This document shows, in pieces, positions 11,632 to 46,095 of a stretch of DNA of 64,000 nucleotides. The notes beneath the pieces were generated by a model, which was not told the origin of the DNA, did not search any database, and was given only the letters and a program-made list of their open reading frames with translations. A program made the translations under genes and the position numbers. Source of the stretch: Lachnospiraceae bacterium (GTDB lineage: Bacteria; Bacillota; Clostridia; Lachnospirales; Lachnospiraceae). The DNA is taken from the NCBI GenBank assembly GCA_024696945.1, contig JAILGF010000071.1:124001-188000 (forward strand), in the 5' to 3' direction. How positions within the stretch are numbered: position 1 is the stretch's first letter; every line of letters starts with the position of its first letter.

Positions 11632-11775
11632 GTCTAAACCCACAAATACCTAACTTAAAGTTAGTTGTTTTTTTTACCATTTTTTGATATATTTTAAACA
11701 TGGGAAACTATTGGGTTTTGGGGAAAAGAAAAACTTTTAATACCCCGATAAAAATATAAATACGGAGGGAAAAAT

Positions 11776-14700: not shown

Positions 14701-17700
14701 TCAGGAGATAAGCAATATAATGCTGTAGATAATACAATAAATGTTGATCTTGAGGCCCCTTCAATTGAATCTGTATCGGATGTAGAAAGAGTCAACACAA
14801 ACTATTCCTTTGGACTTAATTTTACAAAGCAAGAAACGGATCAATATGTGAAGATATATTACCTGTTTACTCCTTCAAGCGAGGCTTGTACTGAAACAGC
14901 AGCAGAAGTAGTTAAAAACGCAACAGGATATTGTGAATACCATTTTGAAAACAAAACGGACCTAATAGCAAATATAGTTGCTGATGGAAATAATCTTAAC
15001 GAAGGCACCTATGTTCTTCAGATTGTTGCTGAGGATATGTTCGGGAACCTTGGTGAAAAACTGGTTACCAAGGTTTTCACCACGCCTGCAACATATACAA
15101 GCACGGATCTTTCGGCTTCAGTAGAAAGTTTAGCATATACTGGTTCTGAACTGACCTTTGATGTTTCTCTATGCGCTAACGACAACCTTTCTGAGGCAGA
15201 TAAAACAATCGTTAGTCAATGGTTGACCAATGCATTAGCAAACGGAAAGATCACATTTAGTTTCAAGCAGATCAAGGATGGTAACGAAACAAGCGTTACG
15301 GCTGATGCTAAGGCTAAGATTACGGATGCGGGAATCTATGAAATCTATGCAAGCTCTTCAGATGCAGAATTTGCAATAAAGAATGAGAGCCTAGGGACTT
15401 TTAAGGTAAATAAGGGTGAAGGTGAAAAACCTGATGCATTACCTACGCTTATCACAAACTGGTCAGAAGACAGAAAGTCCTTTATAATAAGTGCAGACAC
15501 TTCTTCCGTTACGAACGGAAAGGATAAGATTTTTGAGTACAGTTTTAACAACGGACCATTTAGTACTAAGAATGAATTTCCTGCAGAAAAAGAAACAGAA
15601 GTAACCATTAGCATACGTTTTGCCCCTACTGCAAATACTGATACAAGCAGTGCCGTTACAACAACGGTTAAGACAAATGGCGTTTCAGCTGTTCCAACTT
15701 TAACAAAATCGACGTCATTTATAGATACCTTAGAAGTACATATTAAAGGAAAAAGTATCTATGATGAAATATATTATACACTTGACGGAACGGATCCTGA
15801 TGTTACAAGTACATTGGCTATCGGAAATGTAATCCTGGATATTGATGAGACCACAACAGTTAAGGCTGTGATGGCTGAAAACGGAAAAGTTTTGAGCGAA
15901 GTAGTGACTGTTACTTATACAAAAATTGTCGATCCTGCTTCATTTGCTATTAACACAGAAATATATGCCAAAGAAAATATAGTTAAATTAAGTGTTACTA
16001 TTGAAGGCGAGCCTGAAATATCAAAACCTACAGGTATTGTAAAATATGAGTATTCACTTGATGATGGTAATACATGGTCATTGATAGTTGATGATCAAAG
16101 TCTGACGAATACATATACCTGGTCCGTTCCGGCTGATCTTAAGGGAAAGATGTTTAAGGTTAAAGCTACCTATTCAGGGGATACAACATATAAGACATCT
16201 ACGGATACTGCCTTGATAGATCTTAAAGCACCAGAATTAACAGCTGTATCAAAGGTTACAAGGCAGAATACAGATTATTCATTTTCCTTCACTGTAGCTG
16301 AGGCTGATCCTTCAAATGAAGGACATTGTTATTATCTGTTTGCACCGTATAATGAAAACGGATATGACAGTATTAGAGCTTTAGATGTTGTTAACCATGC
16401 AGATGGGTCATTTGAGTTTAATTATGACAATTTTGCTACCGGTCATGATATAAATGGTACCGTAAACGGAGATACACTTTCTAAAGGAGTTTATGTACTT
16501 CAGATTGTTATTGATGACCATAATGGAAACATCAGTGAAAAGCTGGTTACTGAACCTTTCAGTACACCTGTCACATATACAAAAGAAGATTTTTCAGCTT
16601 TAGTAACAGGAAATCTTACTTATACAGGTTTAGCACAGACACCTGCTGTTTCATTGAGTGTCATCAGTTCTGATACGGGAAGAAATAAAACTGCAAGCGA
16701 ATGGCTGGCAGATGCATTAGAAAACAATAAGATCACATATAGTTTCAAGCAGATCAAGGATGGTGACGGAAATAGTGTAACTGCTGATGAACAGTCTAAG
16801 ATTACGGATGCCGGAACTTATGAGATCTACGCAATTTCCTCAGATGATGATTTCGCAATAAAGAAAGATAGCCTTGGTACGATCAATGTAGCTAAAGGGA
16901 TCTGTGAGGCACCTGATGCCGCACCCACACTTACAGCAACCGTTACGGAAGACAGGAGATCGTTTATTGTAAGTGCAGATATTTCATCTGTTACAAACAA
17001 AGAAGGTAAGATTGTCGAATACAGTTTCAATAACGGTAAATTCAGCACCGATAATACATTTGCAGCAGAAAAAGAAACAGAAGTAACAGTAAGCATACGT
17101 TTTGCAGCTACTATCAATACTAATGCAAGTGTTACTGCTACATCTGAGATATTTAAGACAAACGGCGCTTCAGTAGCTCCTACCATTACAGGATCAACAT
17201 CATTTACCGATTCTATGGAAGTCTACATTACGGCTAAGAATAAAGATGATGAGATTTACTATACGGTTGATGGTACGAAACCGGATGTTTCAAGTAAAAA
17301 GGGTATAGGAAGTGTATCTTTTAAAATCGAGGAATCTACATTAGTTAATGTTGTAACGGTCCAGAACGGCAAAGTGCTGAGTGAAATGGTTTCAGCGGAA
17401 TATACTAAGAATACACCTACGCAAGGGCCTACAAACACACCTACACCGGAACCTACAAACATACCTACGCAGGGACCTACAAACACACCTACGCCTGAAC
17501 CTACGGATACACCCACACCTAAACCTACGGCTACGCCTAAGCCTAAAAAGGTTAAGTCTGAAGGTATTTCTGTTGATAAAACTGAAGAAACCCTACATAT
17601 ATTTAAAGAGGGTATGGATGTTATTACCTTGACGGCAACTTTATCTCCTGATAACGTAACGAACAAAGCAGTAAATTGGGTTGTATCGGAAGAAGGAATA

Positions 17701-20711: not shown

Positions 20712-20961
20712 ATGATAGAATATTTTACTTATTACGCGTCCTCGAATATAGTGGGTATCATAATTTTTGGAATTATGCTCGCTCATGACTGTTTGGGTGT
20801 GGATGCAGGTGTGTTCCCGGTTAACAGATTTACAGTGCTAGGAACCAATTTTGCAAATGCTTTTAGATGATAACGATACCATACAGAAATGTATGCAGCG
20901 TGCGGATGACAAACTGTATGAGGATAAAGAACTGTGTAAGAAGCAGGAACAGGCTTCCTGA
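20712..20961 (+). pseudogene. Remnant of a GGDEF-domain gene (internal deletion and frameshift)
   Basis: From ATG 20712 a 52-codon frame reads MIEYFTYYASSNIVGIIIFG and resembles the N-terminal first helix of Lachnospiraceae membrane diguanylate cyclases; it stops at 20868-20870. In another frame, 20857-20961 encodes a segment with DDTIQ-like start, QRADDKLYEDKE and a Gln/Lys tail, which is the typical last helix of a GGDEF domain (ADxxMYxxK pattern). The whole core, including the GGDEF signature, is missing between them. The simplest reading is a gene whose middle was deleted, leaving both ends joined out of frame. The following phosphatase gene begins 13 bases later. Confidence 0.7.
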
Positions 20962-20974
20962 AAGGAGTTGGCAT

Positions 20975-23074
20975 ATGAAAAAGAGCATCAGGTTATTGGT
21001 TTTTGTTATAGCGGTTACATTCTGTATCAACTTAACGGCTCCTCTTTCAGCACAGGCTGCCGGAAGTATGTCCTTATCGGACAAGGGCTATACCTTGAAA
21101 CAGGTTATAGTCTTAAGCCGACACAATATCAGATCTCCTCTTTCTACAAAGGGTTCCGACCTTGAAACCGCAACACCGTATGAATGGTATAAGTGGTCAT
21201 CTGGAGCAAGTGAGCTTTCGCTCCGTGGCGGAGTTTTGGAAACCGAGATGGGGCAGTACTTTAAGGAGTGGCTTGAAAGCGAAGGGCTTATTCCCGAGAA
21301 TTATCATCCGGAAGGCAGTGAAGTCCGCTTTTATTCCAATTCTAAGCAGAGAACAATAGCAACCGCAAAGTATTTTTCGGCAGGTTTTCTGCCTACGGCC
21401 AATATCGACATTGAGTACCACGTTGAATTTGATAAGATGGACCCTGTGTTTACTCCGGACTTTAATTTCCTGAACGATGAGTACATAGAGGCTGCAGATG
21501 CGCAGGCACACCAGCTTTTTAATGATGCGGTCGCAAATCTGGACGATAACTATGAGCTTTTGGTCGATGTTATCGATATGTATGATACGGATAAATACGC
21601 TGATTATAATTTCGAAAATGGCTTTAATCTTTCCTATGCCATAGGTCAGGAGCCTAAGGTGAGTGGATCCTTGAAGCTTGCTACAAGCATCAGCGACGCA
21701 CTTGTCCTTCAGTATTATGAAGAAGCCGATCACGTTAAGGCTGCCTTTGGAAATGACCTGACTCTAAAGCAGTGGGAGGATATTTCCGAGATAAAGACAG
21801 TATATGGGGATATTCTATTTACGGTTCCGCTCATAGCTACCAATGTGGCAAATCCATTGGTTAAAGAAATCTATTCAGAGATGAATACCGAAGGCAGAGT
21901 ATTTACCTTCCTCTGCGGGCATGATTCAAACATAGGCAGCGTACTGGCGGCACTGGGCGTTAAGGACTACGAACTGCCGGATACAATAGAGAAAAAAGCA
22001 CCCATCGGATGTAAGATTGTTTTTTCAAAGTGGGAGAATAAAAAGGGTAAGGCATACTGGTCTGTTGACCTTGTTTATCAGTCCGTAGACCAGCTCCAGG
22101 AACAGCCCTTATTAGACCTTAAAAACGAGCCTGTTGTTTATCACTTAAGTTTTAACGGCATAAAGCAGAACAAGGATGGCTTGTATAAGGAAAAGGCAAT
22201 AAAGAAGCTTTTCAAGAATTCCATGAAGGAATATGATGATCTTTATTTAAAGTATTCCGATGTTGTGGCATTCTTAGGACCTGAAGGTACCTATACACAG
22301 GAAGCCTGCGAGAAGTTTTTTGGTAACGATGATACGCTGGTGCCATACAAAACAGTGGGTGATGCTGTTCAGGCGCTTGTAGATAAAAGGGCTAAATATG
22401 CCGTTATCCCTCAGGAGAATACAATAGGCGGAGCGGTTGTCGATTATGTGGATACGCTTATTGCCGAACCTTCCGTTTCGGTGGCCGGCGAGGTTGAGCT
22501 TACCATAAATCAGAACCTGCTGGCAGCTCCCGGAACCAAGCTTAGTGACATTAAGACTGTGTATTCGCATAAACAGGGCATTGCCCAGGGAACCGAATGG
22601 CTGAAGAAAAACCTGCCCAATTCCGAGGTGATCGAGGTGTCCAGTACCGCTGAGGGTGCAAGGCTTGTTTCAGAAGCGAATAAAGCTTTGTCTGAGAGTG
22701 GTGATAAAAACACATATGCCGCGATAGCATCCGCCGGTTGTGCGGATGTTTATGGGCTTGAAATTCTTGCAGAAGGTATTCAGGGAAACGAGAACAACAA
22801 AACCAGATTTTATGTCCTTTCCCTTGATAAGCCTTCGACAGAAACCAAAAACCGCTTAGCTTTTATAGCAAAAGGAAGCGCGAAAGAACTGCCTTCACTA
22901 ATATCAGGAATTGAGAAGCAGGGCATGACGCTTGTAACCATACATGACCGTCCGCTAAAGACGGTGCTCGGGGAATATTACTACCTTATCGAGTGCTCGG
23001 ATTGCAGCTATGAATCATACCTGAATATTTCGAAGAACAATAAATTTGAGTTCCGGTTCCTTGGATGTTTTTGA
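20975..23074 (+). CDS. Exported fusion: glucose-1-phosphatase-like acid phosphatase + prephenate dehydratase
   Basis: 699 residues from ATG 20975 (AAAGGAG upstream). Residues 1-29 form a signal peptide ending AQA-A. Residues about 35-425 are a histidine acid phosphatase closest in motifs to E. coli Agp: LSRHNIRSP (catalytic His50), the TKGSDLE and RGGVLE segments, and CGHDSNIGS (proton donor Asp, about 317). From about 430 a complete prephenate dehydratase follows: FLGPEGTYT, IPQENTIGG, the catalytic NKTRF (about 609), then a regulatory ACT domain with HDRPLKT in place of the usual ESRP (about 625-699). The reading frame is continuous. Prephenate dehydratase makes phenylpyruvate in phenylalanine synthesis and is normally cytoplasmic, so an exported copy fused to a phosphatase is unexpected. 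The joint function is unknown; no other aromatic-pathway gene is nearby. Confidence 0.9.
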   Translation: MKKSIRLLVFVIAVTFCINLTAPLSAQAAGSMSLSDKGYTLKQVIVLSRHNIRSPLSTKGSDLETATPYEWYKWSSGASELSLRGGVLETEMGQYFKEWLESEGLIPENYHPEGSEVRFYSNSKQRTIATAKYFSAGFLPTANIDIEYHVEFDKMDPVFTPDFNFLNDEYIEAADAQAHQLFNDAVANLDDNYELLVDVIDMYDTDKYADYNFENGFNLSYAIGQEPKVSGSLKLATSISDALVLQYYEEADHVKAAFGNDLTLKQWEDISEIKTVYGDILFTVPLIATNVANPLVKEIYSEMNTEGRVFTFLCGHDSNIGSVLAALGVKDYELPDTIEKKAPIGCKIVFSKWENKKGKAYWSVDLVYQSVDQLQEQPLLDLKNEPVVYHLSFNGIKQNKDGLYKEKAIKKLFKNSMKEYDDLYLKYSDVVAFLGPEGTYTQEACEKFFGNDDTLVPYKTVGDAVQALVDKRAKYAVIPQENTIGGAVVDYVDTLIAEPSVSVAGEVELTINQNLLAAPGTKLSDIKTVYSHKQGIAQGTEWLKKNLPNSEVIEVSSTAEGARLVSEANKALSESGDKNTYAAIASAGCADVYGLEILAEGIQGNENNKTRFYVLSLDKPSTETKNRLAFIAKGSAKELPSLISGIEKQGMTLVTIHDRPLKTVLGEYYYLIECSDCSYESYLNISKNNKFEFRFLGCF

Positions 23075-33899: not shown

Positions 33900-35198
33900 A
33901 TGAGTATCAAACTTTCTGGCGGAATTATCCTTGCAACAGGAGAAAACGGTGAATTTCAGGTCCTTGAGGGGAGCTGTATTGTTGTTAATGGGAAATATAT
34001 AGAATATATCGGTCCGGAGAACGAGGCTCCGGCTGCGGACGAGGTTAAGGACATGAAGGGAAGGATCCTCATGCCCGGTATTGTAAATTCACACTGCCAC
34101 GGTCCGATGACACTGCTCAGAGGCATAGGCGGAGGGCTTGCTCTTCAGGAATGGCTGACCACCGCTATATTTCCTATTGAGGATAAGCTTATTCCGGAGG
34201 ATGTCAGAATCGGCGAGGTCTGGGCTGTTATGGAAATGCTTGCAAGCGGCGTTACCTGTGTTTCGGAAATGTATGATTTCCCGGAACAGATGTGGCAGGT
34301 TCTTAAGGAAACAGGTATTAAAGGAAATGTTTCAAGAGTAGGACTTTCTTTTTCGGATACGGAGGAGATTCCTGCGGGAAGATTTAAGGAATGCGTTGAT
34401 TTTGCAGAGAATTTCAAGGATGAGGACGACAGAGTGCTTTCGGAATTCTGTCTTCACTCGGAATATCTTACAAAAGAGCCTTTTGTTAAGAGGATCGCAG
34501 AGGCCAATAAAAGCCTTCATAAGACTATGAACATACATGTTTCGGAAACAAAGCTGGAGCATGAGGAGTGCAAGGCAAGGCATAACGGGCTTACCCCCGT
34601 ACAGTATCTTGAAAAATGCGGTATTCTTGATGAAAGAACCTACGGTGCCCATTGTGTCTGGGTTGAAAAAGAAGACCTGGATATCATGAAAGATAAGAAA
34701 TTCTCGGTAGCCTTTAATCCTTCAAGCAATTGCAAGCTTGCTTCGGGTTTTGCACCTATAAACGATATGCTTGCAAAGGGTATCAATGTAGGAATTGGAA
34801 CAGACGGAACGGCAAGCAATGATAACCTGAACATGTTTGAAGAATTACATCTGGGTTCACTGCTGATAAAGAATTCAGCCAAGGATGCCACGGTGCTTAA
34901 TGCCGAAACCGTTCTTAAAATGGCCACGGTTAACGGAGCGAAGGCTTTGGGAAGAAATGATACGGGAGAGCTTAAGGTCGGCAAGCGTGCCGATATAATA
35001 GCCGTTTCCATGGATAAGCCGCATATGTATCCGGCTTTTGATATCATGAATCTTCTTGTATATTCCGCTCAGGGTTCGGACGTTGTTATGACAATGGTTG
35101 ACGGGAATATACTTTATGAGAACGGTATCTACATGACCATCGATGCCGAAAAAGCAAAAGCCGATATGAAGTCGAGCGTTTTAAGGCTTTATAAATGA
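33900..35198 (+). CDS. Amidohydrolase of the MTA/SAH deaminase (chlorohydrolase) family
   Basis: 432 residues. Metal-dependent TIM-barrel deaminase: MPGIVNSHCHGPM gives the HxH pair (His65, His67); IHVSET supplies the third His; ERTYGAHCVW the fourth; and GTDGTASNDNLNMFEEL the metal Asp. The overall pattern fits 5-methylthioadenosine/S-adenosylhomocysteine deaminase or related guanine-type deaminases. Exact purine or thio-purine substrate is not certain. ATG 33900 has AGGAGAG upstream. It ends 7 bases before the region leading into a cobalamin riboswitch; a link between adenosylcobalamin- or SAM-dependent metabolism and this gene is only suggestive. Confidence 0.85.
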   Translation: MSIKLSGGIILATGENGEFQVLEGSCIVVNGKYIEYIGPENEAPAADEVKDMKGRILMPGIVNSHCHGPMTLLRGIGGGLALQEWLTTAIFPIEDKLIPEDVRIGEVWAVMEMLASGVTCVSEMYDFPEQMWQVLKETGIKGNVSRVGLSFSDTEEIPAGRFKECVDFAENFKDEDDRVLSEFCLHSEYLTKEPFVKRIAEANKSLHKTMNIHVSETKLEHEECKARHNGLTPVQYLEKCGILDERTYGAHCVWVEKEDLDIMKDKKFSVAFNPSSNCKLASGFAPINDMLAKGINVGIGTDGTASNDNLNMFEELHLGSLLIKNSAKDATVLNAETVLKMATVNGAKALGRNDTGELKVGKRADIIAVSMDKPHMYPAFDIMNLLVYSAQGSDVVMTMVDGNILYENGIYMTIDAEKAKADMKSSVLRLYK

Positions 35199-35204
35199 TT
35201 AAAA

Positions 35205-35425
35205 GCAGTAGCGGAGTAAGGAATCAGGTGTGATGCCTGAGCGGGCCCGCCGCCGTATATAAACAATATATTGCACTTCATGTGTGATATGCCGGATCAA
35301 GCGGGAGGGAAAAGCTGCCGCAAGCTTACCCTTTAAAAAATACCATTGAAGCCTTGGCTTTGAGAAGGTGCGCAAGATCCGTATGTTTATGAGCCGGAAG
35401 ACTTAGCCGTGTTTTCTGTAGACCG
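35205..35425 (+). promoter_or_regulatory. Cobalamin riboswitch
   Basis: This 352-base gap (35199-35550) contains the conserved B12-box pattern: GTAAGGAATCAGGTGTGATG (35216-35235) then CCTGAGCGGGCCCGCCGCCGTAT (35236-35258), matching the core GGGAA-GGTG-AATCC-GCGGNCCCGCCACTGT layout; the peripheral stem region follows; and the closing AGCCGGAAGACTTAGCC (35392-35408) matches the AGYCAGGAGACCTGCC end. Downstream 35506-35521 has a CGGTTC-TTAT-GAACCG hairpin close to the GATCGGAGG ribosome site of the next gene, a possible expression platform. It controls the DUF4430 secreted protein, and should switch it off when cobalamin is plentiful. Boundaries are approximate. Confidence 0.88.
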
Positions 35426-35550: not shown

Positions 35551-36450
35551 ATGAAAATAAGATTATCGAAATTTCTTTCCATGATCCTGATTGCGGCCTT
35601 GATCATGACAGGTTTTACCGGATTTTCCGGTAGTGTAAGGGTATCGGCAGCTGAGGAGATTAAGGTTTATGTAACAATCTCCGACAAAGGAACGCTTGTC
35701 TTAAAGCAGAAGACCGTTGAGGTTTCTGATGTGGATGGTGATGGTGCTCTTACAATCGCTGATGCACTTACTTGTGCACATGAGAAGTATTATGATGGTG
35801 ACAGTACTGCAGCAGGCTTTGCCTACAGTGAAAAGGAAGGCTATGATGGTTATTCCATTGACGTGCTCTGGGGTGATGACAGTGGAGCATTCATGTACTA
35901 TTTAAATGACGGTATGGCATGGAGCCTTGCAGATCCCATTAATGATGGCGATTACATTAACGCGTTTGTATTTCAGGATCAAGCATACTGGTCGGATGCC
36001 TATACTTTTTTCAACTCACATAAGATCGGTGTAAAGAACGGTGGTTCCAAGAAGGTAACACTTTCATACTATACCTATGATGAGAATTGGAATATTATTC
36101 CCACACCTCTTGCAAATGCAAAGATCATCATCAATGAAAAAGAGACTGAATATGTTACTAACAAGAAGGGTAAGGTAACTCTTAAGTTTGATAAGGCTGG
36201 CAGTTATTTTATCAGTGCAGTTAGCGATGACGTGACCATAGTTCCTCCTTCGTGCCTTATATTTGTACAGCCCAAGAAGGGTGACACTATAGAGGTTAAG
36301 AATGTAAACTATACTGTAACCAAGCTTGGCAAGGTTTCTACCGGCAAGAAGGGAAAGGTTACATTCTCTAAAGCAGCAAACGAAGGTAAAGAGGCTCCTA
36401 AGACTGTTGAATTTGCAGGGGTTACTTACAAGGTTAAGGTTGTTGATTGA
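35551..36450 (+). CDS. Secreted DUF4430 (transcobalamin-like) protein with EF-hand insert
   Basis: 299 residues. Signal peptide about 1-33 (ending VSA-A). Residues about 37-155 form a DUF4430 domain, the fold of the C-terminal beta domain of animal transcobalamin and intrinsic factor: MYYLNDGMAWSLADPINDGDYINAFVF is its signature. Inserted in it is a calcium-binding loop of dockerin/EF type with Asp60, Asp62, Asp64 and Asp71. A second beta-rich domain (about 160-255, with ITNKKGKVTLKF-like segment) is followed by a repeat-like tail rich in Lys. No anchor motif is seen. The riboswitch upstream makes binding of cobalamin or another corrinoid the best inference. Ends 19 bases before the DUF3842 gene. 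Confidence 0.85.
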   Translation: MKIRLSKFLSMILIAALIMTGFTGFSGSVRVSAAEEIKVYVTISDKGTLVLKQKTVEVSDVDGDGALTIADALTCAHEKYYDGDSTAAGFAYSEKEGYDGYSIDVLWGDDSGAFMYYLNDGMAWSLADPINDGDYINAFVFQDQAYWSDAYTFFNSHKIGVKNGGSKKVTLSYYTYDENWNIIPTPLANAKIIINEKETEYVTNKKGKVTLKFDKAGSYFISAVSDDVTIVPPSCLIFVQPKKGDTIEVKNVNYTVTKLGKVSTGKKGKVTFSKAANEGKEAPKTVEFAGVTYKVKVVD

Positions 36451-36469: not shown

Positions 36470-36880
36470 ATGGATATTTTGGTTATGGACGCCCAAGGAG
36501 GCGGTCTGGGAAAACAGTTGATCACAAAGATAAAGAATGAATACCCGGATGTACATATTCTGGCTGTGGGTACGAATACCATTGCTACATCGGCCATGAT
36601 AAAGGCCGGAGCCGATGAGGCCGCAACCGGTGAAAATTCGGTGGTGGTTGCCTCAAAACAGGCTGATATTATCATCGGCCCGATAGGAATAGTCGTGGCC
36701 GATTCAATGCTTGGCGAGATTACACCTACTATGGCAAGAGCCGTAGCACAGTCCGGTGCTAAGAGAATACTCATACCGTTTAACAGCTGTCAAAATTATA
36801 TTGCTGGTGTCGGGGACCTTAATACCGGCAGGTTGGTTGAAGATGCTGTAGCTTATCTAAAAAAACTTCTTGACAATTAA
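36470..36880 (+). CDS. DUF3842 family protein
   Basis: 136 residues, cytoplasmic. Opens VMDAQGGGLGKQL, a Gly-rich nucleotide-binding-like loop, then VGTNTIATSAMIKAGAD and IGPIGIVVADSMLGEITP, the conserved centre of DUF3842. Function is unknown for the family, which is common in Clostridia. The 19-base gap suggests it is cotranscribed with the riboswitch-controlled gene upstream, but its weak ribosome site (AAAGGTAA) should be noted. The -35 box of the next promoter overlaps its stop codon region. Confidence 0.85.
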   Translation: MDILVMDAQGGGLGKQLITKIKNEYPDVHILAVGTNTIATSAMIKAGADEAATGENSVVVASKQADIIIGPIGIVVADSMLGEITPTMARAVAQSGAKRILIPFNSCQNYIAGVGDLNTGRLVEDAVAYLKKLLDN

Positions 36881-36904: not shown

Positions 36905-37064
36905 AGTGCAGATTTTGTGGATTGTCGGCAGAAGCAGGCATTATAAATACAGAAGTATTTGGTTTTGCAAAATATTGCATTATGATTATTATGGCCTGTG
37001 AAAAAATATGTATACCATGAAGGTATATCCTTTCGTATAAACGAGAGGGTATACCTTATTTTTT
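36905..37064 (+). promoter_or_regulatory. Structured leader ending in a terminator, candidate attenuator/riboswitch
   Basis: In the leader, GCAGGC (36934-36939) can pair with GCCTGT (36993-36998), enclosing AAATAC-AGAA-GTATTT (36945-36960) and TGCAA-AATA-TTGCA (36967-36980), a three-way junction. It is followed by a 16-bp hairpin AAGGTATATCCTTTCG/CGAGAGGGTATACCTT (37019-37056) and seven T (37058-37064), only 32 bases before the start codon. A terminator placed just before a ribosome site is typical of attenuation. It does not match the riboswitch classes I know. Confidence 0.55.
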
Positions 37065-37095: not shown

Positions 37096-38409
37096 ATGAA
37101 AAAAACGATCAGAAAAATTATGGCATTGAGCCTTGTCCTAATACTTACGTTGGGACTTTGTGCATGTAGTAGTACTCAAGAGCCAAAAAACAACGAAACA
37201 AATGTAACAACACAGGTTACTCAGGAGCCTGCAAAGGAAAAAGAGACAACACCGGTGGTTACAGAGGAGACAAAGCCCACAGAGGAAATCCAACCTACCG
37301 AGGAAGCAGCAGAAACAACACCGGAAGTGACAGCAGAGCCTGTAGGACCGAAGGAAGTTGAGATTACCGATATGATAGGAAGAACGGTAACTGTTGTACC
37401 GGGAAGCTACACAAGAGTAGTATGCATAGGTGCCGGAGCGCTTCGTATGTATTGCTATATAGGTGATGCAAACCTTCTTTGCGGAGTTGAGGATATTGAC
37501 AACGAGACACTTGAGGAAAGACCTAAGATGTTTGACGCAACACCCCGTCCTTATGTCCTGGCATACGGCGACATCTTCAGCAAGCTTCCTTCTTGCGGTG
37601 TAGGCGGACCTAACGCACAGGCAGCGGAAGCAGAGAAAATACTTTCCTGCAATCCTGACATAGTTATTTCTGAATATGAAGATGTTGAAAAGGAAGATGC
37701 TCTTCAGGATCAGCTTGGAGTACCGGTTATCACAATGAAGGTCGGCCCCGGAGGAGTATTTGACAATAACTTCAAGGGTTCTATGAGACTTTTGGGCACC
37801 ACATTCGGTGAAGAAGCTAAGGCAGAGGCACTTGTAAGCTTTGTGGAATCGGAGCAGGCCGAAATTATCTCGAGGACTGCAAATATTCCTGAAGAAGAGA
37901 AGCCTAACGTTTATATCTGCGGTCTCGGAAACTGGGGAACCACAAATCATCTTATGACAGCTCAGAATTATAACGTATTCAATATTGCAAACGTTAAAAA
38001 CGTTGTTAACGATCTTGAGAAGGATGGAATTCAGGCAATAGAAGAGGAAAAGTTTGTTTCGCTCGGAGATTCCATGGACATCATAATAATTGATGCCGCT
38101 GCATTAAAGAACATCAAACCTTTATATGCCGAAAATCCTCAGATGTTTGACGTATGCAAGGCATGGAATGAAGGAAATGTATATCTGGAGATGCCTTACA
38201 ACGCATATTATACAAACTTTGAGCTGGCACTTGCCAACACTTGGTTCATAGCAAAATCAGTATATCCCGATGCATTTGCAGATGTAGATATTACAGCAAA
38301 GACCAATGAAATCACCAAACAGTTCCTTGGTAAAGATCTTGCAGCTGAGATTTTCTCAAAGCCTACCAGTCTTGGCGGATATCAGAAGATAGATACGTCA
38401 GCTTTCTAG
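37096..38409 (+). CDS. ABC-type substrate-binding lipoprotein (metal-chelate/corrinoid class)
   Basis: 437 residues. Lipobox LGLCACSS (Cys about 24), a Thr/Glu/Pro-rich spacer to about 88, then a helical-backbone (Peripla_BP_2, FecB/BtuF-like) domain starting VEITDMIGRTVTVVPGSYTRVVCIG, with the VGGPNAQAAEAEKILSCNPDIVI linker typical of the class. It binds iron-siderophore, haem, cobalamin or another metal complex outside the membrane. No FecCD-type permease or ATPase is next to it, so it is an orphan here. AAGGGAGG ribosome site. The neighbouring cobalamin riboswitch makes a corrinoid ligand possible, but its own leader is not a cobalamin element. Confidence 0.85.
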   Translation: MKKTIRKIMALSLVLILTLGLCACSSTQEPKNNETNVTTQVTQEPAKEKETTPVVTEETKPTEEIQPTEEAAETTPEVTAEPVGPKEVEITDMIGRTVTVVPGSYTRVVCIGAGALRMYCYIGDANLLCGVEDIDNETLEERPKMFDATPRPYVLAYGDIFSKLPSCGVGGPNAQAAEAEKILSCNPDIVISEYEDVEKEDALQDQLGVPVITMKVGPGGVFDNNFKGSMRLLGTTFGEEAKAEALVSFVESEQAEIISRTANIPEEEKPNVYICGLGNWGTTNHLMTAQNYNVFNIANVKNVVNDLEKDGIQAIEEEKFVSLGDSMDIIIIDAAALKNIKPLYAENPQMFDVCKAWNEGNVYLEMPYNAYYTNFELALANTWFIAKSVYPDAFADVDITAKTNEITKQFLGKDLAAEIFSKPTSLGGYQKIDTSAF

Positions 38410-38432: not shown

Positions 38433-38462
38433 CGAGCAGGTAATACCTGCTCGCTTTTTTTA
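38433..38462 (+). terminator. Terminator of the binding-lipoprotein gene
   Basis: CGAGCAGGT (38433-38441), loop AAT, ACCTGCTCG (38445-38453), then C and a T run. Confidence 0.9.
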
Positions 38463-38548: not shown

Positions 38549-38604
38549 ATTCAATGTTTTAGTTTGCATATTTACCAAAAACACAGTAGATGCAGGAGGT
38601 TAAA

Positions 38605-40254
38605 ATGAAAAAATATTCACTACTTATCGCAGTAGCTATACTTGTGGTTGCGATAGCTGTAATAGCCATTGTGAATGGAACAGCCGGTGAAGACTTCACC
38701 TTTGTAGGAAGATGGTGGTCATTACTGCCGCCGCTTGTCGCTATTGTTCTTGCTTTGATCACAAAGGAAGCATATTCATCACTTTTTGTTGGTATATTCC
38801 TTGGCGGGTTCATGGTATCGGGCTGCTCGCTGCTTGAAACATTTGATACCATTACTACAACCGGTGTTACATCAGCTATAGCAGATACCTCAGGAGTTCT
38901 TTTCTTCCTTGTTATCCTTGGAATTATTGTGGCTCTAATAAACCAATCCGGTGCATCACGTGCATTTGGTGAATGGGCAAAGAAGCATATTAAAACAAAG
39001 GCCGGAGCACTTTTTGCAACATTTGTGCTTGGTGTTCTTATTTTCATAGACGACTATTTCAACTGCCTTACTGTTGGTTCGGTTATGTCACCCGTTACCG
39101 ACAGCAAGAAGATTTCAAGAGTAAAGCTTGCTTACATCATCGATGCTACAGCAGCTCCCGTTTGCATGATAGCTCCCGTATCCTCATGGGCCGCTGCGGT
39201 ATCAAGTTGTGTGGAGAGCGAAACTTATTCGGGTATTGAACTTTTTGTTAGAGCAATTCCCTACAACTTCTATTCAATATTCACATTCGTATTTATTATA
39301 ACTCTGATCATCCTTGGCATTGATTATGGTAAGATGAGCGGTTTTGAGATAAAGGCTGAAAAGGATGGTGACTTAAGCGTACTCACAGTTGCTCTGAACG
39401 ATGAAAAAGAGGAAGTAAGAGTAAAAGAATACGGCCCCGCAAATCCTGCAAAGGGAAGAATCTACGATCTTATAATACCGATCGTACTTCTTATAATCTT
39501 GTCGATCTGGGGACTCTTGAGAGTCGGTTTCCAGGCAATAGAAGAGGGTTCGTTTGTTAAAGCCTTTTCAGAGACCGATGCAACCGTTGGACTTCCCCTC
39601 GGCGGTATTGTTGCACTTATAATAATTAGTATATATCTTATCATACGTAAGGTTGTTTCCTTTGAGGACGCAATGAAGTGTGTTCCGAAGGGCTTCATGG
39701 CCATGGTTCCCGCAATAACCATTTTGGTACTGGCAACGGCATTAAAGAACCTGACAGGTGAACTTGATGCTAAAACATTCGTAGAAGAAGTAATGGCAGA
39801 TGCGGCAGGACTTCAGTGGGCACTTCCCGCATTCGTATTTGTCATTGCCTGTGTCATTGCATTTGCAACCGGTACTTCATGGGGAACCTTTGGTATCCTT
39901 ATCCCCATTGTATCTGCTGTATTCCCTGAGAGCAGCTCATTGTTCTTCGTTGGTATTTCGGCATGTCTTGCAGGTGCTGTTTGCGGCGATCATTGCTCAC
40001 CTATTTCGGATACAACCATCATGTCATCCGCAGGTGCTCACTGCGATCATATTTCACACGTTGAGACACAGCTTCCGTATGCTATATCCGTTGCCGTTAT
40101 TTCATTTATCAGTTATCTATTGGCCGGAATTTTTGACGGAATGGGCGTTACCTTCCTTTCAATACCGATAGGTGTAATTCTTACGATCGGATTCCTATTC
40201 GTTATGAAGAAAATTGTTAAGACGGATAAAACAATGAAGGGTTTTAAAGCATAA
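38605..40254 (+). CDS. NhaC-family Na+/H+ antiporter-like transporter
   Basis: 549 residues from ATG 38605 with an AGGAGG site; an ATG 15 bases upstream overlaps that site. About 12 membrane helices. Landmarks of the NhaC superfamily: LLPPLVAIVLALITKEAYSSLFVGIFLGG, the IFIDDYFNCLTVGSVMSP helix with paired Asp, and FATGTSWGTFGILIPIV followed by GAVCGDHCSPISDTTIMSS. The family exchanges Na+ or H+, or carries organic acids and amines. The barrel-DUF4430 gene begins 8 bases after its stop, so it is the first gene of the apparent corrinoid-uptake operon. Whether it has a role in uptake or is a bystander is unknown. Confidence 0.9.
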   Translation: MKKYSLLIAVAILVVAIAVIAIVNGTAGEDFTFVGRWWSLLPPLVAIVLALITKEAYSSLFVGIFLGGFMVSGCSLLETFDTITTTGVTSAIADTSGVLFFLVILGIIVALINQSGASRAFGEWAKKHIKTKAGALFATFVLGVLIFIDDYFNCLTVGSVMSPVTDSKKISRVKLAYIIDATAAPVCMIAPVSSWAAAVSSCVESETYSGIELFVRAIPYNFYSIFTFVFIITLIILGIDYGKMSGFEIKAEKDGDLSVLTVALNDEKEEVRVKEYGPANPAKGRIYDLIIPIVLLIILSIWGLLRVGFQAIEEGSFVKAFSETDATVGLPLGGIVALIIISIYLIIRKVVSFEDAMKCVPKGFMAMVPAITILVLATALKNLTGELDAKTFVEEVMADAAGLQWALPAFVFVIACVIAFATGTSWGTFGILIPIVSAVFPESSSLFFVGISACLAGAVCGDHCSPISDTTIMSSAGAHCDHISHVETQLPYAISVAVISFISYLLAGIFDGMGVTFLSIPIGVILTIGFLFVMKKIVKTDKTMKGFKA

Positions 40255-40262
40255 GGTATTTT

Positions 40263-41996
40263 ATGGAAAAGAAAAAAATGCCGGCGAATGTACGGACATA
40301 CATTTTATTGGCCGTTCTCTTTTTGATCCTGTGTTTACCCGCAGACATACGTGTTAAAGCGGGAACGGATGGAAAAGCAAAGGCAAAGGAAATTTTTGAC
40401 GGTATTGTATCATACAATATCGCCGGTCCGGAAACCTCGGATATTCAGGAGTTCATAGATAAGGACCTGATTGGAAAAGTAGGCGGTACTGCTGAATGGT
40501 ATGTTCTTGGACTTTCGCAATACGGTAATTATGATTTTACAAAATACCGCACCGCCTTGGAGGATTATTTAAGCTCCAGGGAAGTTAAGGGCGCTTCCGC
40601 AAAATTAAAATTTGCACTGCTCTTAGCTTATGTAGATGCAGATGACAGTTTTTGGGAAAATGTGCTTTATGATGATTCCATCGGAAGTCAGGGAATCATG
40701 AGCTACGTTTTCGGGCTGCACATTATAAATAACGGATATAAAGGAAATATATCCGGATCGGATATATTTGACACATTAAAGGCATTAAGGCATGAAGACG
40801 GAGGTTGGTCCGTTACCGGAAATTTCGGGGATGTTGACGTTACTGCCATGGTCCTTCAGGCTTTGGCTCCGGGCTATTTAAACAATAATCTGTACGAACT
40901 GTCGGAAGGACAAAAGGAAGATCTTAAAGACCTGGTACAGGGCGGAGTTGATTTCCTTTCCGCCAGACAGCAGGAGGACGGGGATTTCGCAAGCTTCGGG
41001 GTACGCAATGCCGAGAGCACCGCACAGGTTATAACCGCGTTATCTGCACTTGGGATTGACTGTGCACAGGATGAACGTTTCATAAAGAACGGTAATTCGC
41101 CGATAGACGGACTATTGATGTTCAGGCTTAAGGACGGGAGCTTCTCTCATAAGGCAGAAGACGTTTCAAGTCCTTCGGCAACCGTTCAGACCTTTTACTC
41201 AATGGTAGCGTATCTTAGAATGTGTGAGGGTCAGACCCCACTCTATGTACGTGACAAAAATGAGAAGAAACTGGCCGAGATTTTGAATGACTCGGAAACT
41301 GAACCGAGTACTGTAGATACGAGTGAAAAAGACGTAACTACGGTGACAGAGTCAACCGCAAGCCAGACCGAAACAAACGCAAACCCGACAGAGTCAGCCA
41401 CAAGTCCGAACGGAGATAAATCAGGTTATAAGCCTTTTGCGATGCTAATAATAACCGGAGTATGCCTTGTCGTATGTTTTGTGCTTTTACTTTTAAAAAA
41501 GCATTGGAAAAATTTCCTGTTTGTTGGAATCGTAGGAATTGTCGGAATACTGATAGTCATTTTTACCGATTTCAGCAGTCCGGAAAATTATTACGGAACA
41601 CAAACGGAAAAAAACAATGCTGTCGGAACGGTCACAATGTCGATCCGCTGTGATATACTGGAAGGAAAAGAAATAAATGAGCATATCCCGAAGGATTACT
41701 GTATTCTTGCCGATACGCAGTTCAATCTGGAAGACGGAGAAACCGCATATGATATCCTTCTCGAAGCTGCAAAGCAGTTCGGAATAAGCGTAGAACACGA
41801 GGGCAGCTCGGATATTATATATATTTCAGGTATAAATTACCTGTACGAGAATGATTACGGCGACCTGTCCGGTTGGGTATATAAAGTAAACGGAACACTG
41901 CCGTCAATCGGCTGCGGCGGCTATAAACTATCACCCGGAGACGTCATTGAGTGGTGCTACACCCTCGACCTCGGAAACGATGCTGTAATGGAATAA
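40263..41996 (+). CDS. Membrane-anchored alpha-barrel + DUF4430 protein, intrinsic factor-like
   Basis: 577 residues. A signal-like helix (about 10-31), then an alpha/alpha barrel of prenyltransferase/terpene-cyclase type repeats (about 37-335): LRHEDGGWSVTG, ARQQEDGDFASFG and FRLKDGSFSHK each begin a helix pair. A Ser/Thr/Glu-rich linker (about 340-385) leads to two membrane helices (about 393-412 and 418-435), and the last ~120 residues are a DUF4430 domain with the signature SGWVYKVNGTLPSIGCGGYKL and GDVIEWCYT. Barrel plus beta domain is the order in human intrinsic factor and transcobalamin, which clamp cobalamin between the two. With a hairpin of two helices, both domains would lie outside. 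It is directly upstream of an ECF transporter, so it probably captures cobalamin or another corrinoid at the surface and hands it over. Ligand is inference. Confidence 0.85.
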   Translation: MEKKKMPANVRTYILLAVLFLILCLPADIRVKAGTDGKAKAKEIFDGIVSYNIAGPETSDIQEFIDKDLIGKVGGTAEWYVLGLSQYGNYDFTKYRTALEDYLSSREVKGASAKLKFALLLAYVDADDSFWENVLYDDSIGSQGIMSYVFGLHIINNGYKGNISGSDIFDTLKALRHEDGGWSVTGNFGDVDVTAMVLQALAPGYLNNNLYELSEGQKEDLKDLVQGGVDFLSARQQEDGDFASFGVRNAESTAQVITALSALGIDCAQDERFIKNGNSPIDGLLMFRLKDGSFSHKAEDVSSPSATVQTFYSMVAYLRMCEGQTPLYVRDKNEKKLAEILNDSETEPSTVDTSEKDVTTVTESTASQTETNANPTESATSPNGDKSGYKPFAMLIITGVCLVVCFVLLLLKKHWKNFLFVGIVGIVGILIVIFTDFSSPENYYGTQTEKNNAVGTVTMSIRCDILEGKEINEHIPKDYCILADTQFNLEDGETAYDILLEAAKQFGISVEHEGSSDIIYISGINYLYENDYGDLSGWVYKVNGTLPSIGCGGYKLSPGDVIEWCYTLDLGNDAVME

Positions 41997-42022: not shown

Positions 42023-42886
42023 ATGTTAAACTTTTATCTGCCTGATTTCTATAATAATTCAAATCTCATATGCCTTTTGGCGGATCTGATGAAACATTAT
42101 CCCGATAATTTTTACGATGATGTAAGGATCGGTGCCGCCTACGGCTCATTCCCCGGAGCCATCTGGAACGGCGGAAGAGTTGTTTGGGGAATAGAGTATA
42201 GGGAAAAGATGGAAAAACTCGTAAAGGAGTACAATGACAGGGGAATTGCTGTAAGACACACCTTTACCAACCCTTATATTGACGAAAGATACGTTAACGA
42301 CCGTTATTGCAATATGATCCTTGACGTTACCAACAACGGAATGAACGAGGTTATAGTCAATACCCAGGCACTTGAGGATTATGTAAGGGCGAACTATCCG
42401 AATTTTAAGATAATCTCATCAACCACCAAGTGCTTAGAGGACGTAAATGCGATAAACGAGGAGCTAAAGAAGGATTATTATCTTGTGGTTACGGATTCTT
42501 CTTTGAACAATACCGATACGCTGTTCAGCCTTGAGCCCAAGAGCAAGATAGAGGTTTTGGTAAATCATTACTGCCGTGATCATTGCCCGAACAGGCAGGA
42601 GCACTACAGCCAGATAGGAAAGGCACAGCTTAATTACACCGAGCTTCATTTCCCCGAGTGTAAGTTTACCGCAAGGAATTTCTATACTCTTATGGAGAAT
42701 CATTCATTTATTACCACGGATATGATCTTCGGAAAATACAAGGAAGCAGGTTTCAAGCATTTCAAGGTTGACGGACGTGCACATGCGCCGAGAAACGTCA
42801 TCGAAAGCTTCCTGTATTACCTTGCAAAGCCCGAATACAGGGATAAGATAAGGATATTCATTTATCAGCAGCTCTATAAATTATAA
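42023..42886 (+). CDS. U32-like TIM-barrel protein, candidate iron-sulphur protein
   Basis: 287 residues, cytoplasmic. I find distant but ordered similarity to peptidase U32 family proteins, including the real U32 gene in this window at 54494: a KIISSTTKCL segment where U32 has DIHVSTQAS, then a NHYCRDHCPNRQEH segment where U32 has its Cys cluster, and FKVDGRAHAPRNVIESFLYYL where U32 has FKIEGRMKSPEY. Four or more Cys are placed like those that bind a 4Fe-4S cluster in UbiU/UbiV. No proteolytic role is implied. It lies between the barrel-DUF4430 gene and the ECF T gene, so it may act on the imported corrinoid, or may be a chance passenger. Assignment by eye only. Confidence 0.6.
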   Translation: MLNFYLPDFYNNSNLICLLADLMKHYPDNFYDDVRIGAAYGSFPGAIWNGGRVVWGIEYREKMEKLVKEYNDRGIAVRHTFTNPYIDERYVNDRYCNMILDVTNNGMNEVIVNTQALEDYVRANYPNFKIISSTTKCLEDVNAINEELKKDYYLVVTDSSLNNTDTLFSLEPKSKIEVLVNHYCRDHCPNRQEHYSQIGKAQLNYTELHFPECKFTARNFYTLMENHSFITTDMIFGKYKEAGFKHFKVDGRAHAPRNVIESFLYYLAKPEYRDKIRIFIYQQLYKL

Positions 42887-42920: not shown

Positions 42921-43799
42921 ATGCGTGACATAAAGGAATACAATCCAATAACTGTCTTTATCTACTACATGGCGGTAGTTGTTGTTTCCATGTTCACCAT
43001 GAATCCTTTCCTGCATATCATATCTTTTATAGGAGGATTGGTTCAGTTCCTGATCCTCCCGGCAAAGGGTAAACTGAGGACACATATATGGTACTTTGTG
43101 CTGGGACTTATCCTGGCACTCGTAAGGCCGCTGTTTTCACATAACGGAGCAACGGTCCTGTTTATTATAAATGACAATCCGATAACAAAGGAAGCCTTTA
43201 TCTTCGGATTAAATTCCGCGATCATGGTCGTCGGAGTGCTTTATCTTTTCAGAATCTTTTCTGAGATAATGACGAGCGACCGCCTGCTGTATATATTCGG
43301 ACGTATTTCGCCTAAGACCGCTCTTATTCTTTCAATGGGGCTGCGGTATATACCCATGCTGAGGAATCAGAGGAAGATAACCGCCGATGCCCAGACTGCT
43401 ATTGGAATTAATAAGGATGACAATGTAATAGACCGGATACGCGGAGGCCTGAATGTCTTTTCAGCAACGGTTTCCTGGGGACTTGAAAACGGAATAGTCA
43501 CTGCTGACAGTATGGCCGCGAGAGGATACGGAGAAGGCAAAAGATCGTTCTATTATGATATAAGGTTTAAGAGCCGTGATGCGATAGTGGTTTCAGTTAC
43601 GTTCCTCTGCCTTATACCGATAGTGGCGGCTCTCGCATTAGATTCTTTTGATACGGTTTTTTACCCGCTTTTTACAATTGCGGAAATTGACGCCCTGGCT
43701 TTGACAGGATACATTTCTTACGGGATACTTGTTTTGATCCCGATCATTTTAAAGCTGCTGGAGAAACTCAGATGGAAATACTTAATGTCGAAAATCTGA
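42921..43799 (+). CDS. ECF transporter T component
   Basis: 292 residues. Energy-coupling-factor membrane scaffold (CbiQ/EcfT family) with about six hydrophobic helices. The two coupling motifs are visible: AARGYG-G (in SMAARGYGEGKRSF, about 197) and the ALILSMGLRYIPMLRNQ segment. It connects the S substrate-binding unit to the ATPases. The ATPase gene begins 28 bases before its stop, so the two are translationally coupled. Confidence 0.92.
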   Translation: MRDIKEYNPITVFIYYMAVVVVSMFTMNPFLHIISFIGGLVQFLILPAKGKLRTHIWYFVLGLILALVRPLFSHNGATVLFIINDNPITKEAFIFGLNSAIMVVGVLYLFRIFSEIMTSDRLLYIFGRISPKTALILSMGLRYIPMLRNQRKITADAQTAIGINKDDNVIDRIRGGLNVFSATVSWGLENGIVTADSMAARGYGEGKRSFYYDIRFKSRDAIVVSVTFLCLIPIVAALALDSFDTVFYPLFTIAEIDALALTGYISYGILVLIPIILKLLEKLRWKYLMSKI

Positions 43800-45412
43800 T
43801 ATTTAAATATCCGAAGTGTGATACTCCGGTGATCGACGACGTTAGTTTCTCGATAGATGAGGGTGAATTTGTGGTATTGTGCGGTCCGACCGGGAGCGGA
43901 AAATCGACGCTTTTAAGAAATTTAAAGCCTGAGATAACTCCGCTGGGTGAAAGAACCGGCAATATCAATATTTCCTCACGGGTTGGCTATGTTTGTCAGA
44001 ATCCCAAGCAGCAGGCCGTAACAGACAAGGTATGGCATGAGCTTGCATTCGGACTTGAAAATTTGAATATGCCGGTGGATGAGATGAGGATAAGGGTGGC
44101 GGAAATGGCTTCCTATTTCGGCATTGAGAGCTGGTTTGATAAACGGGTTGAAGAACTCTCCGGAGGACAGCTGCAGATGCTCAATCTTGCGTCCGTTATG
44201 GTCATGAACCCGGATGTTCTTATTTTGGATGAACCGTCCTCGCAGCTTGATCCTATGGCAGCTTCTGAATTCTTTACGACTCTCAAAAAACTGAACGACG
44301 ATTTTTCGCTTACCATAATAATCGCGGAGCACAGACTCGAAGAGCTGATCCCATGCTGTAACAGGCTTATGGTCCTTAAGGGCGGAAAGCTTATTCTTAA
44401 CGGAAGTCCCGAAGAAGTCCTAAATCGTATCGGAAGTGAAGAGGAGATATTTGATGCGCTTCCTTCAGCCTACAGATTATTTAAAAGCCTGCCCGATAAT
44501 ATTGCTCGCAATTTCACACAATCCGGAAAAACACCTGTTACGATCAGGGAGGGAAGGGAGCTTTTAAGAGGCATATGCAGACCGAAAAGCGATTACGATA
44601 ATCGGTCAGCCGGTGATCCCGGAGAAAAGAAGGAGAAGCTCCCCGCGCTTGAATTTAAGGATGTTTCTTTCAGGTTCTCCAAGGAAGCTTCGGATGCATT
44701 AAAGGATATGTCTTTTACAATATACACCGGGGAGATTTTTTGTTTCTTGGGAGGAAACGGCTCGGGAAAAACAACGGCATTGAACGTTGCGGCCGGACTT
44801 CTTAAGCCTTATGAAGGTACTGTCAGGGTATTCGGGAAAAAACTAAAGGAATATAAGGATCAAAGCCTTTATAACAAAAATCTTTCAATGCTTCCCCAGG
44901 ATGTTCAGACCATATTCCTACACAATACGGTAAGGGAAGAACTTGAAAGCAGGAACGCAATGAAATCCTTAGAGTTTATACCTTTTGACGGTGAAGCTCT
45001 GTTTGAAAAACATCCCTATGATCTTTCTGGAGGAGAACAGCAGCTTCTGGCTCTCGCCATAGTACTGGCTACTGATCCTAAGATAATACTTCTCGATGAA
45101 CCGACAAAGGGACTTGATGCGTATAGGAAGAAGAAGCTTGCAGAAATCCTTAGGAAACTAAAAGAAACAGGGATAACGATCGTTATGGTTACTCATGATG
45201 CAGCATTTGCGGCAGAGTGTGCTGACAGATGCGCCCTGCTTTTCAGAGGCAGCATGACAAGCATCGGACCGACAACCAAGTTTCTTTACGGAAACACGTT
45301 CTATACAACCCCCGTTTGCAGAATGAGCAGAGGGATAATTGAAGGTGCCGTAACAATTGAAGGCCTTAAAGCTATTATAGAGAGCAATACAGAACAAAAC
45401 GGAACAAAATGA
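43772..45412 (+). CDS. ECF transporter ATPase with two fused ABC domains (A1-A2)
   Basis: 546 residues with two ABC ATPase domains in one chain, where many ECF transporters use two genes. Domain 1 (about 1-230): Walker A GPTGSGKST, signature LSGGQLQML, Walker B VLILDEPSSQLD, switch His in IIAEHR. Domain 2 (about 290-520): GGNGSGKTT, Q-loop LPQDVQTIF, signature LSGGEQQLL, Walker B IILLDEPTKGLD, VTHDAAFA. Both sites look intact. It overlaps the T gene by 28 bases and the S gene by 4 (ATGA). Confidence 0.95.
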   Translation: MEILNVENLIFKYPKCDTPVIDDVSFSIDEGEFVVLCGPTGSGKSTLLRNLKPEITPLGERTGNINISSRVGYVCQNPKQQAVTDKVWHELAFGLENLNMPVDEMRIRVAEMASYFGIESWFDKRVEELSGGQLQMLNLASVMVMNPDVLILDEPSSQLDPMAASEFFTTLKKLNDDFSLTIIIAEHRLEELIPCCNRLMVLKGGKLILNGSPEEVLNRIGSEEEIFDALPSAYRLFKSLPDNIARNFTQSGKTPVTIREGRELLRGICRPKSDYDNRSAGDPGEKKEKLPALEFKDVSFRFSKEASDALKDMSFTIYTGEIFCFLGGNGSGKTTALNVAAGLLKPYEGTVRVFGKKLKEYKDQSLYNKNLSMLPQDVQTIFLHNTVREELESRNAMKSLEFIPFDGEALFEKHPYDLSGGEQQLLALAIVLATDPKIILLDEPTKGLDAYRKKKLAEILRKLKETGITIVMVTHDAAFAAECADRCALLFRGSMTSIGPTTKFLYGNTFYTTPVCRMSRGIIEGAVTIEGLKAIIESNTEQNGTK

Positions 45413-46095
45413 TAGTAATAAAGAACAACAAGCTTAAAAAAATACTGAAAATCCTGATACCGCTCATAATCATCCCGGCGGTAGCTGTCGGAGGTTCGCT
45501 GCTGTTTGATGAACAGAAGCACATCTTCGTATCTCTTTTGGTGGCCTTTCTTTCACTTGTTCTTTTTATTACCGGATTCGAAAAAAAAATAACAGGAACA
45601 AGAAGAATGGTTCTTGTTGCTGTTATGACAGCCATCAGCGTACTCGGACGGTTTATCCCGTTCTTTAAACCGATAACGGCAATAACGGTGATAACCGCCA
45701 TGTATCTTGGCGGGGAAGCCGGCTTCCTGGTCGGTTCGCTTTCGGCACTTATATCAAATTTTTATTTCGGACAGGGTCCGTGGACCGCTTTTCAGATGCT
45801 GGCTTGGGGCTTGATAGGGTTTATAGCGGGTCTGATGGCGGAGCCTCTAAAGAAAAACAGGATCCTTTTACTTGCGTACGGAGTATTGTCCGGCGTAGCA
45901 TTCTCATTTGTTATGGACGTATGGACGGTTCTATGGTACAGTGCGGGATTTGACATTGAGCTGTATCTATTGTCATTAAAAGCCGCCATACCCCATACGA
46001 TATTGTATGCAGTATCCAATTTCATCTTCCTGTTTGTTCTTGCAAAGCCCTTCGGCGAGAAGCTGGAACGCATTAAACTGAAATACGGTGTGTAA
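45409..46095 (+). CDS. ECF transporter S (substrate-binding) component, probably corrinoid
   Basis: 228 residues. Two short hydrophobic N-terminal helices, then the six-helix S-component fold: RRMVLVAVMTAISVLGRFI (with the Ala-rich helix 1 that contacts the T unit), GGEAGFLVGSLSALISNFYFGQGPWTAFQMLAWGL, and DVWTVLWYSAGF. The start overlaps the ATPase stop. The vitamin bound cannot be read directly; the two DUF4430 proteins in this neighbourhood point to cobalamin or a precursor, as for CbrT-type S units. Convergent, 4 bases from the CNNM gene end. Confidence 0.85.
   Translation: MIVIKNNKLKKILKILIPLIIIPAVAVGGSLLFDEQKHIFVSLLVAFLSLVLFITGFEKKITGTRRMVLVAVMTAISVLGRFIPFFKPITAITVITAMYLGGEAGFLVGSLSALISNFYFGQGPWTAFQMLAWGLIGFIAGLMAEPLKKNRILLLAYGVLSGVAFSFVMDVWTVLWYSAGFDIELYLLSLKAAIPHTILYAVSNFIFLFVLAKPFGEKLERIKLKYGV

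Follow-up and report, generated by a model that had tools for sequence, protein, structure and literature searches.

The window analysed here is a stretch of 64,000 nucleotides (nt) from Lachnospiraceae bacterium (contig JAILGF010000071.1, positions 124,001 to 188,000), and the gene of interest, at 40263..41996 on the plus strand, encodes a protein designated P0001, or the clamp protein. P0001 is likely to be a membrane-tethered, extracytoplasmic corrinoid-capture protein of a rumen-type, vitamin B12-auxotrophic Gram-positive bacterium, one that would feed an adjacent energy-coupling factor (ECF) importer of the CbrT type under a cobalamin riboswitch; sequence comparisons and structure models carry this reading. 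An initial annotation, made from the letters of the window, had proposed surface capture for an ECF vitamin transporter, and this predicted function is supported by the riboswitches of the cassette, by an S component that is, among solved structures, nearest to CbrT and by the lack of CbiD in the genome. Neither the riboswitch nor the secreted partner gene figured in that annotation. The parts of the cassette in the window are:

35167..35425 (+), cobalamin riboswitch (RF00174), Rfam 39.1 bits (gathering score 31.5), full model 1-189
35551..36450 (+), secreted partner protein of 299 aa, the window copy having no above-cut-off Pfam match
40263..41996 (+), clamp protein P0001, 577 aa, ATG start
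40371..41225 (+), alpha/alpha barrel of P0001, residues 37-321, predicted outside
41427..41564 (+), two-helix membrane hairpin of P0001, residues 389-434, with a positive loop (from model helices and loop charge)
41619..41963 (+), DUF4430 or transcobalamin-type beta domain of P0001, residues 453-567 (PF14478 and Foldseek), predicted outside
42921..43799 (+), ECF T component of the CbiQ family (PF02361, 28.2 bits, cut-off 25)
43772..45412 (+), fused double ECF ATPase (CbiO-CbiO), ABC_tran matched in two stretches, TIGR04520 at 314.6 bits, just below its cut-off of 315
45409..46095 (+), ECF S component, related to CbrT by a profile match to 6fnp and extended at the N-terminus by about 60 residues

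Domain organisation and predicted fold of P0001

P0001 has two hydrophobic stretches, one at residues 6-34 that resembles a signal peptide, as assigned from hydrophobicity only, and a strongly hydrophobic one at 387-441 that holds two helices. DUF4430 (PF14478) is matched by residues 492-567 with 63.6 bits, against a Pfam cut-off of 23.8. Pfam barrel families are not recognised in P0001 itself at E<=0.01, and a B12-carrier family is not among its three Pfam hits at that threshold. Across the 53 aligned proteins, P0001 included, Pfam recognises SQHop_cyclase_C in 44, Prenyltrans in 30 and DUF4430 in all 53.

The AlphaFold2 model built from this 53-sequence alignment (mean pLDDT 86.2, pTM 0.71) displays a helical barrel at about residues 37-321, a low-confidence linker, helices at 389-410 and 415-434, and the DUF4430 strands within 453-567. 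It also contains the strand insert of the transcobalamin-type SLBB fold, helix 495-506 being followed by two inserted strands (510-514, 519-524) ahead of strand 537-542. The barrel, the DUF4430 fold and the two membrane helices between them, all claimed in the initial annotation, are thus present in the model. In all 53 aligned proteins the loop that joins the two helices is positive, its net charge being +2 or higher. By the positive-inside rule a loop so charged would lie inside, and the barrel and the DUF4430 domain would both face outside.

Comparison with animal B12 carriers

When the P0001 model is compared by Foldseek with 350,542 PDB chains, the 15 best matches are all transcobalamin, intrinsic factor or haptocorrin. 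These matches (E 1.6e-8 to 2.0e-6, over 517-586 alignment columns) align both domains and stand ahead of every other barrel protein, so that the likeness to intrinsic factor and transcobalamin proposed earlier is recovered at the level of fold. The beta domain of P0001 and that of transcobalamin (5no0) give a TM-score of 0.78 normalised by target. Animal carriers, the closest structural matches in the PDB, also have the same domain order, a barrel followed by a transcobalamin-type beta domain. They differ in being secreted and soluble, whereas P0001 has a predicted membrane hairpin (389-434) between the domains, is bacterial and is encoded within an ECF gene cluster, and a profile-detectable sequence match between them is absent.

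Other searches of the PDB give little. A single-sequence search with P0001 returned chance or weak squalene-cyclase matches only, and with the DUF4430 region alone one chance match. The 50 matches listed by VIA-align are barrel proteins, the B12 carriers not being among them, which excludes nothing. The beta domain is also similar in fold to 3u7z (RUMGNA_00854 of Ruminococcus gnavus), whose two chains give target-normalised TM-scores of 0.68 and 0.76; the solved chains of 3u7z, unlike P0001, are single-domain, of 96-97 residues. 3u7z was deposited as a 'putative metal binding protein'.

ECF transporter and S component

A CbiQ-type T component, two ATPase domains and an S component are encoded together in the window, a dedicated group I ECF gene set. 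A profile of the S component, from 26 aligned proteins, matches 6fnp chain A in the PDB at E 2.6e-13, the next match being 4hzu at 0.0034. 6fnp, named 'Membrane protein' in the PDB listing, we take to be ECF-CbrT. The ECF-CbrT complex of Lactobacillus delbrueckii transports cobalamin and cobinamide (PMC5997447), and, in the accessible part of that account, it shares with the window a related S component, an ECF T component and two ATPase domains. It differs in that the window ATPases are fused, and in that purified ECF-CbrT transports in liposomes without a capture protein, whereas the ECF genes of the window adjoin one. The window S component is also longer, with about 60 extra, largely hydrophobic N-terminal residues (45409-45590) before the part that aligns with 6fnp (profile positions 61-227). 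This extra segment is possibly a contact for the clamp hairpin. ATP-driven corrinoid uptake by the window ECF complex is probable.

Conservation of the cassette among relatives

Relatives of P0001 are found in 32 of 61 genomes, including 23 of the 24 same-genus genomes (the window's own counted). The 80 loci counted below belong to named relatives and are the best-matching of 343, hence a biased sample. Among these 80 loci, an ECF-T gene lies within 9 kb of the clamp gene in 74 and directly downstream in 68, a double ATPase is present in 73, an S component in 69 and the partner in 75. Four of the 6 loci without ECF-T end within 260 nt downstream, at a contig end. Homologues therefore occur mainly beside ECF genes, in keeping with what had been foreseen from the window. 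The cassette is carried by named isolates, e.g. Ruminococcus flavefaciens FD-1 (locus L095).

The partner relatives stand directly before the clamp gene, at most 350 nt upstream, in 75 of the 80 loci. At the C-terminus of 47 aligned partner proteins, PxTG occurs within the last 60 residues in 27 and a hydrophobic stretch in 41; the window copy is without such an anchor. The partner, a putative accessory, may hold or concentrate corrinoid at the cell wall. That it might be a second DUF4430 protein is unsupported by sequence, DUF4430 not being among the 22 Pfam families of the 47 aligned proteins and the profile-comparison probability being 0.9%.

In three stretches from relatives (L054, L056, L061) the two domains of P0001 are separate neighbouring genes, one for a barrel protein that begins with a hydrophobic stretch and one for a DUF4430 protein anchored by its hydrophobic N-terminus, and these precede ECF-T and double-ATPase genes. 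The three stretches belong to three other genera, one in the same family and two in other families of the order. An anchored DUF4430 protein is likewise found in L055, L057 and L059. That the two occur as split neighbouring genes supports the barrel and DUF4430 acting together, and the fused P0001 resembles, from its sequence, what would result from joining such a pair through their membrane anchors. The window partner has no match in the split-form stretches.

Cobalamin riboswitch

The window riboswitch is the only RF00174 match in its own genome (86% complete). Six copies from the same genus, the window copy being one of them, share long invariant core stretches. Compared with the Rfam consensus, the window copy carries an insertion of about 60 nt, at a place where the same-genus copies have a variable stretch. 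In the window, the riboswitch and the clamp gene are separated by the DUF3842, binding-protein and antiporter genes.

Inside the fetched stretches of relatives there are 17 RF00174 matches, and for all 17 the first gene matched downstream on that strand is a clamp-like gene, ECF-T or the partner. Two riboswitch profiles, built from 16 and 7 copies out of cassette loci, give 121 matches in 68 of the 80 loci, with many places matched by both, and 0 in 80 block-shuffled loci. Of these matches, 119 are on the cassette strand and precede the first cassette gene by at most 1.3 kb, a few of them overlapping its called start. The other two belong to L124, between the clamp gene and ECF-T; this locus has two cobalamin-riboswitch-like elements, at 8900-8993 before the partner/clamp pair and at 11733-11819 between the clamp gene and ECF-T. 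Where the ECF genes come first (L094, L117, L131, L136), the riboswitch precedes ECF-T instead.

The association also appears in genome-wide counts. Of the 46 DUF4430 domains in the 61 genomes, 22 (from 18 of 33 genomes) are preceded on the same strand by RF00174 at a distance of at most 10 kb, vs about 0.2% expected per riboswitch. Whole-genome Rfam scans of the genomes behind 70 of the 80 loci find RF00174 in 30 of 36 and 25 of 34, its places being mapped to loci for five loci in the 'strong' profile only, by matching contig number to accession. In the order-wide survey of 295 genomes, DUF4430 is present in 120 and RF00174 in 187. Among the matches listed there, a riboswitch and a downstream DUF4430 on the same contig and strand were seen by eye in G041, G175, G187, G221, G237, G262, G283 and G332, and a pair on opposite strands in G265. 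DUF4430 alone is no evidence for B12, since short-frame DUF4430 proteins also occur in this survey.

Host B12 metabolism

CbiD, the only biosynthesis enzyme searched for, is absent from the window's own genome (86% complete) and from 14 same-genus genomes, some of them incomplete. The own genome encodes a single B12-binding domain, in a frame of 858 residues. The host is thus presumably a B12 auxotroph, as far as gene content tells.

Proposed function and alternative explanations

In the proposed mechanism, low B12 would be sensed by the cobalamin riboswitch and the system would be expressed. The signal peptide would place the barrel outside the cell, and a flexible linker (about residues 336-388) together with the two-helix hairpin would bring the chain back outside. 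As the hairpin returns the chain, barrel and DUF4430 would lie on the same side and be able to close around a single corrinoid in the manner of the two transcobalamin domains, alpha and beta, the flexibility of the linker letting the barrel swing onto the membrane-close DUF4430 domain. The neighbouring S component of the CbrT type could then take over the captured corrinoid, which the ECF motor of T component and ATPases would pump into the cell.

Several results weigh against this reading. Superposition of the whole chain on the carriers is poor (root-mean-square deviation 12-18 A, TM-score 0.28-0.36 by query), so a closed clamp is not displayed by the model, and the transcobalamin, intrinsic factor and haptocorrin chains in the PDB go unmatched by profiles of the whole protein (E<=1), of DUF4430 (E<=10) and of the barrel (E<=10). 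The window S component has no match in the split-form stretches. Two loci with a clamp gene and a riboswitch match, L125 (clamp gene 10016-11671) and L116 (5751-7370), have no ECF genes within the 9,979 and 3,783 nt downstream, respectively. Between the window riboswitch and the clamp gene lie terminator-like sites (37020-37057 and 38433-38453) and a promoter-like site (38520); in view of these sites and of the intervening genes, the window clamp copy may have escaped direct riboswitch control. With regard to the profiles, 12 of the 68 loci with a match supplied profile copies, so that 56 loci were found independently, and a match is missing in 12 of the 80 loci. Three of those 12 (L071, L105, L130) start within 260 nt of a contig end; an Rfam rescan of 7 of the other 9 found none, and the genomes of L084, L098, L137 and L140 carry RF00174 although those loci show none. 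Of 15 further relatives' stretches without a nearby Rfam match, 4 have a profile match and 11 have none, and 24 of the 46 DUF4430 domains in the 61 genomes have no RF00174 at most 10 kb upstream.

The ligand could differ from cobalamin. A corrinoid system that binds mainly another form, i.e. cobinamide or a cobamide whose lower base differs, is a serious possibility, though one to which we give somewhat under even chances. Rumen and gut corrinoids are diverse, and the failure of sequence profiles to match the animal carriers would fit such a difference; the riboswitch and fold evidence fit any corrinoid form alike. Transport of cobinamide by ECF-CbrT (PMC5997447), as described in the accessible part of that source, also points this way. 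Import of cobalt or another small solute, with the riboswitch merely repressing a cobalt importer when B12 is plentiful, appears quite improbable. The T component does belong to the CbiQ family, and genes of the CbiQ/CbiO type are well known as cobalt importers, in many cases controlled by B12 riboswitches. However, the S component resembles CbrT, a transcobalamin-like clamp would be needless for cobalt, and CbiD is found in 0 of 15 same-genus genomes, the own genome among them (several incomplete; CbiD alone searched), so a corrin-ring pathway to be fed with cobalt is not in evidence.

Two further explanations concern P0001 itself. As a corrinoid sensor or an adhesin-like surface protein rather than a transport subunit, it could account for the ECF-free surroundings of L125 and L116 and for the barrel-like matches that some relatives have within very large proteins. 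This is quite unlikely given that ECF-T directly adjoins the clamp gene in 68 of 80 loci and that the split forms, too, precede ECF-T and ATPase genes. That the barrel is an enzyme, a class II terpene cyclase or prenyltransferase-like protein modifying a surface lipid with DUF4430 as accessory, is very improbable indeed: B12 carriers come first in Foldseek with both domains aligned, the barrel is predicted to lie outside the membrane, and ECF genes and riboswitches are frequent neighbours.

Returning to corrinoid capture, a broader and more tentative proposal, to which we grant just short of an even chance, is that the corrinoid ECF importers of Gram-positives include a large class in which a transcobalamin-like clamp, split and tethered, is a regular subunit. 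Its barrel and DUF4430 halves, which some relatives keep separate and others fuse by way of their membrane anchors, would close on the corrinoid outside, and the hairpin would dock on the S component with its extra N-terminal hydrophobic segment. If true, a dedicated capture protein outside the cell would indeed serve an ECF transporter, and the system would be a relative, still living in bacteria, of the one that gave animals their intrinsic factor.

Relation to previous work

To our knowledge, surface capture of scarce B12 by Gram-positive bacteria of the gut and rumen is much less known than the Bacteroidetes systems. BtuG, which we presume to act in surface B12 capture, serves as an analogue. 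In the accessible descriptions of BtuG and BtuH of Bacteroidetes, B12 is captured at the surface ahead of an importer, an analogous role; these are Gram-negative outer-membrane systems and are likened to P0001 by role, not by fold.

A transcobalamin-like SLBB clade in Gram-positives, fused to a toroid, was described by Burroughs, Balaji, Iyer and Aravind in 2007 (PMC1796856), with operons that contain CbiO, CbiQ and, in some cases, another surface protein of the SLBB type. B12 scavenging and lateral transfer to animals were both proposed there. As far as the accessible part of that paper goes, P0001 shares with this clade a transcobalamin-type SLBB/DUF4430 domain, a signal peptide, the toroid fusion and CbiO/CbiQ neighbours, as well as a second surface protein in the operon and missing B12 biosynthesis (here CbiD alone was searched for). 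The hairpin between the domains, the riboswitch, the CbrT-type S component and the split barrel/DUF4430 pairs are unmentioned in that part, and the window partner differs in being not detectably DUF4430. Since B12 scavenging had already been predicted by Burroughs et al. (PMC1796856), the capture idea of the initial annotation is a rediscovery, now better evidenced. As far as the literature searched shows, what is new is the hairpin-fused architecture, the split relatives, the riboswitch association and the CbrT-type S component, together with the spread of the cassette through Ruminococcus, rumen Lachnospiraceae and further Clostridia. No experimental test of bacterial transcobalamin-like proteins was recognised among the open-access PMC papers that the searches listed. 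The bioinformatic prediction of 2007 is hereby turned into a concrete cassette in named isolates, with natural split forms suited to binding tests, and it bears on the origin of the animal B12 carriers.

Other genes and observations

The remaining genes around P0001 in the window are:

36470..36880 (+), DUF3842 protein between the partner and the clamp gene, Pfam 167 bits
37096..38409 (+), Peripla_BP_2 binding protein of the iron-siderophore/BtuF type, no adjoining permease genes, Pfam 49.4 bits, best PDB match 2etv at E 1.1e-49
38590..40254 (+), Na_H_antiporter (NhaC-like) protein, separated by 8 nt from the clamp gene that follows, Pfam 166.9 bits
42023..42886 (+), open reading frame of 287 aa between the clamp and ECF genes, weak Peptidase_U32 match below cut-off

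The ECF importer said in the initial annotation to come after the clamp gene is indeed there, its genes spanning 42921-46095, although the reading frame at 42023-42886 intervenes. No counterpart of this frame is reported in the fetched stretches of relatives. The binding protein at 37096-38409 lies between two terminator-like sites, with neither permease nor ATPase genes of its own alongside; as a member of the system it is unsupported, no match being reported in the fetched stretches of relatives. A Na_H_antiporter gene upstream of the clamp gene is also found in L035/L072 (same contig). In L125 a murG-like gene, recognised by eye, follows the clamp gene on the opposite strand. A plasmid search gave no match.

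Elsewhere in the window, 11776-19443 encodes a protein of 2555 aa with Fn3-associated and CHB_HEX_C matches. The open reading frame at 20867-23074 (735 aa) joins a histidine-phosphatase (branch 2) domain, residues 76-393, to a prephenate dehydratase domain, residues 467-654, an unusual fusion.
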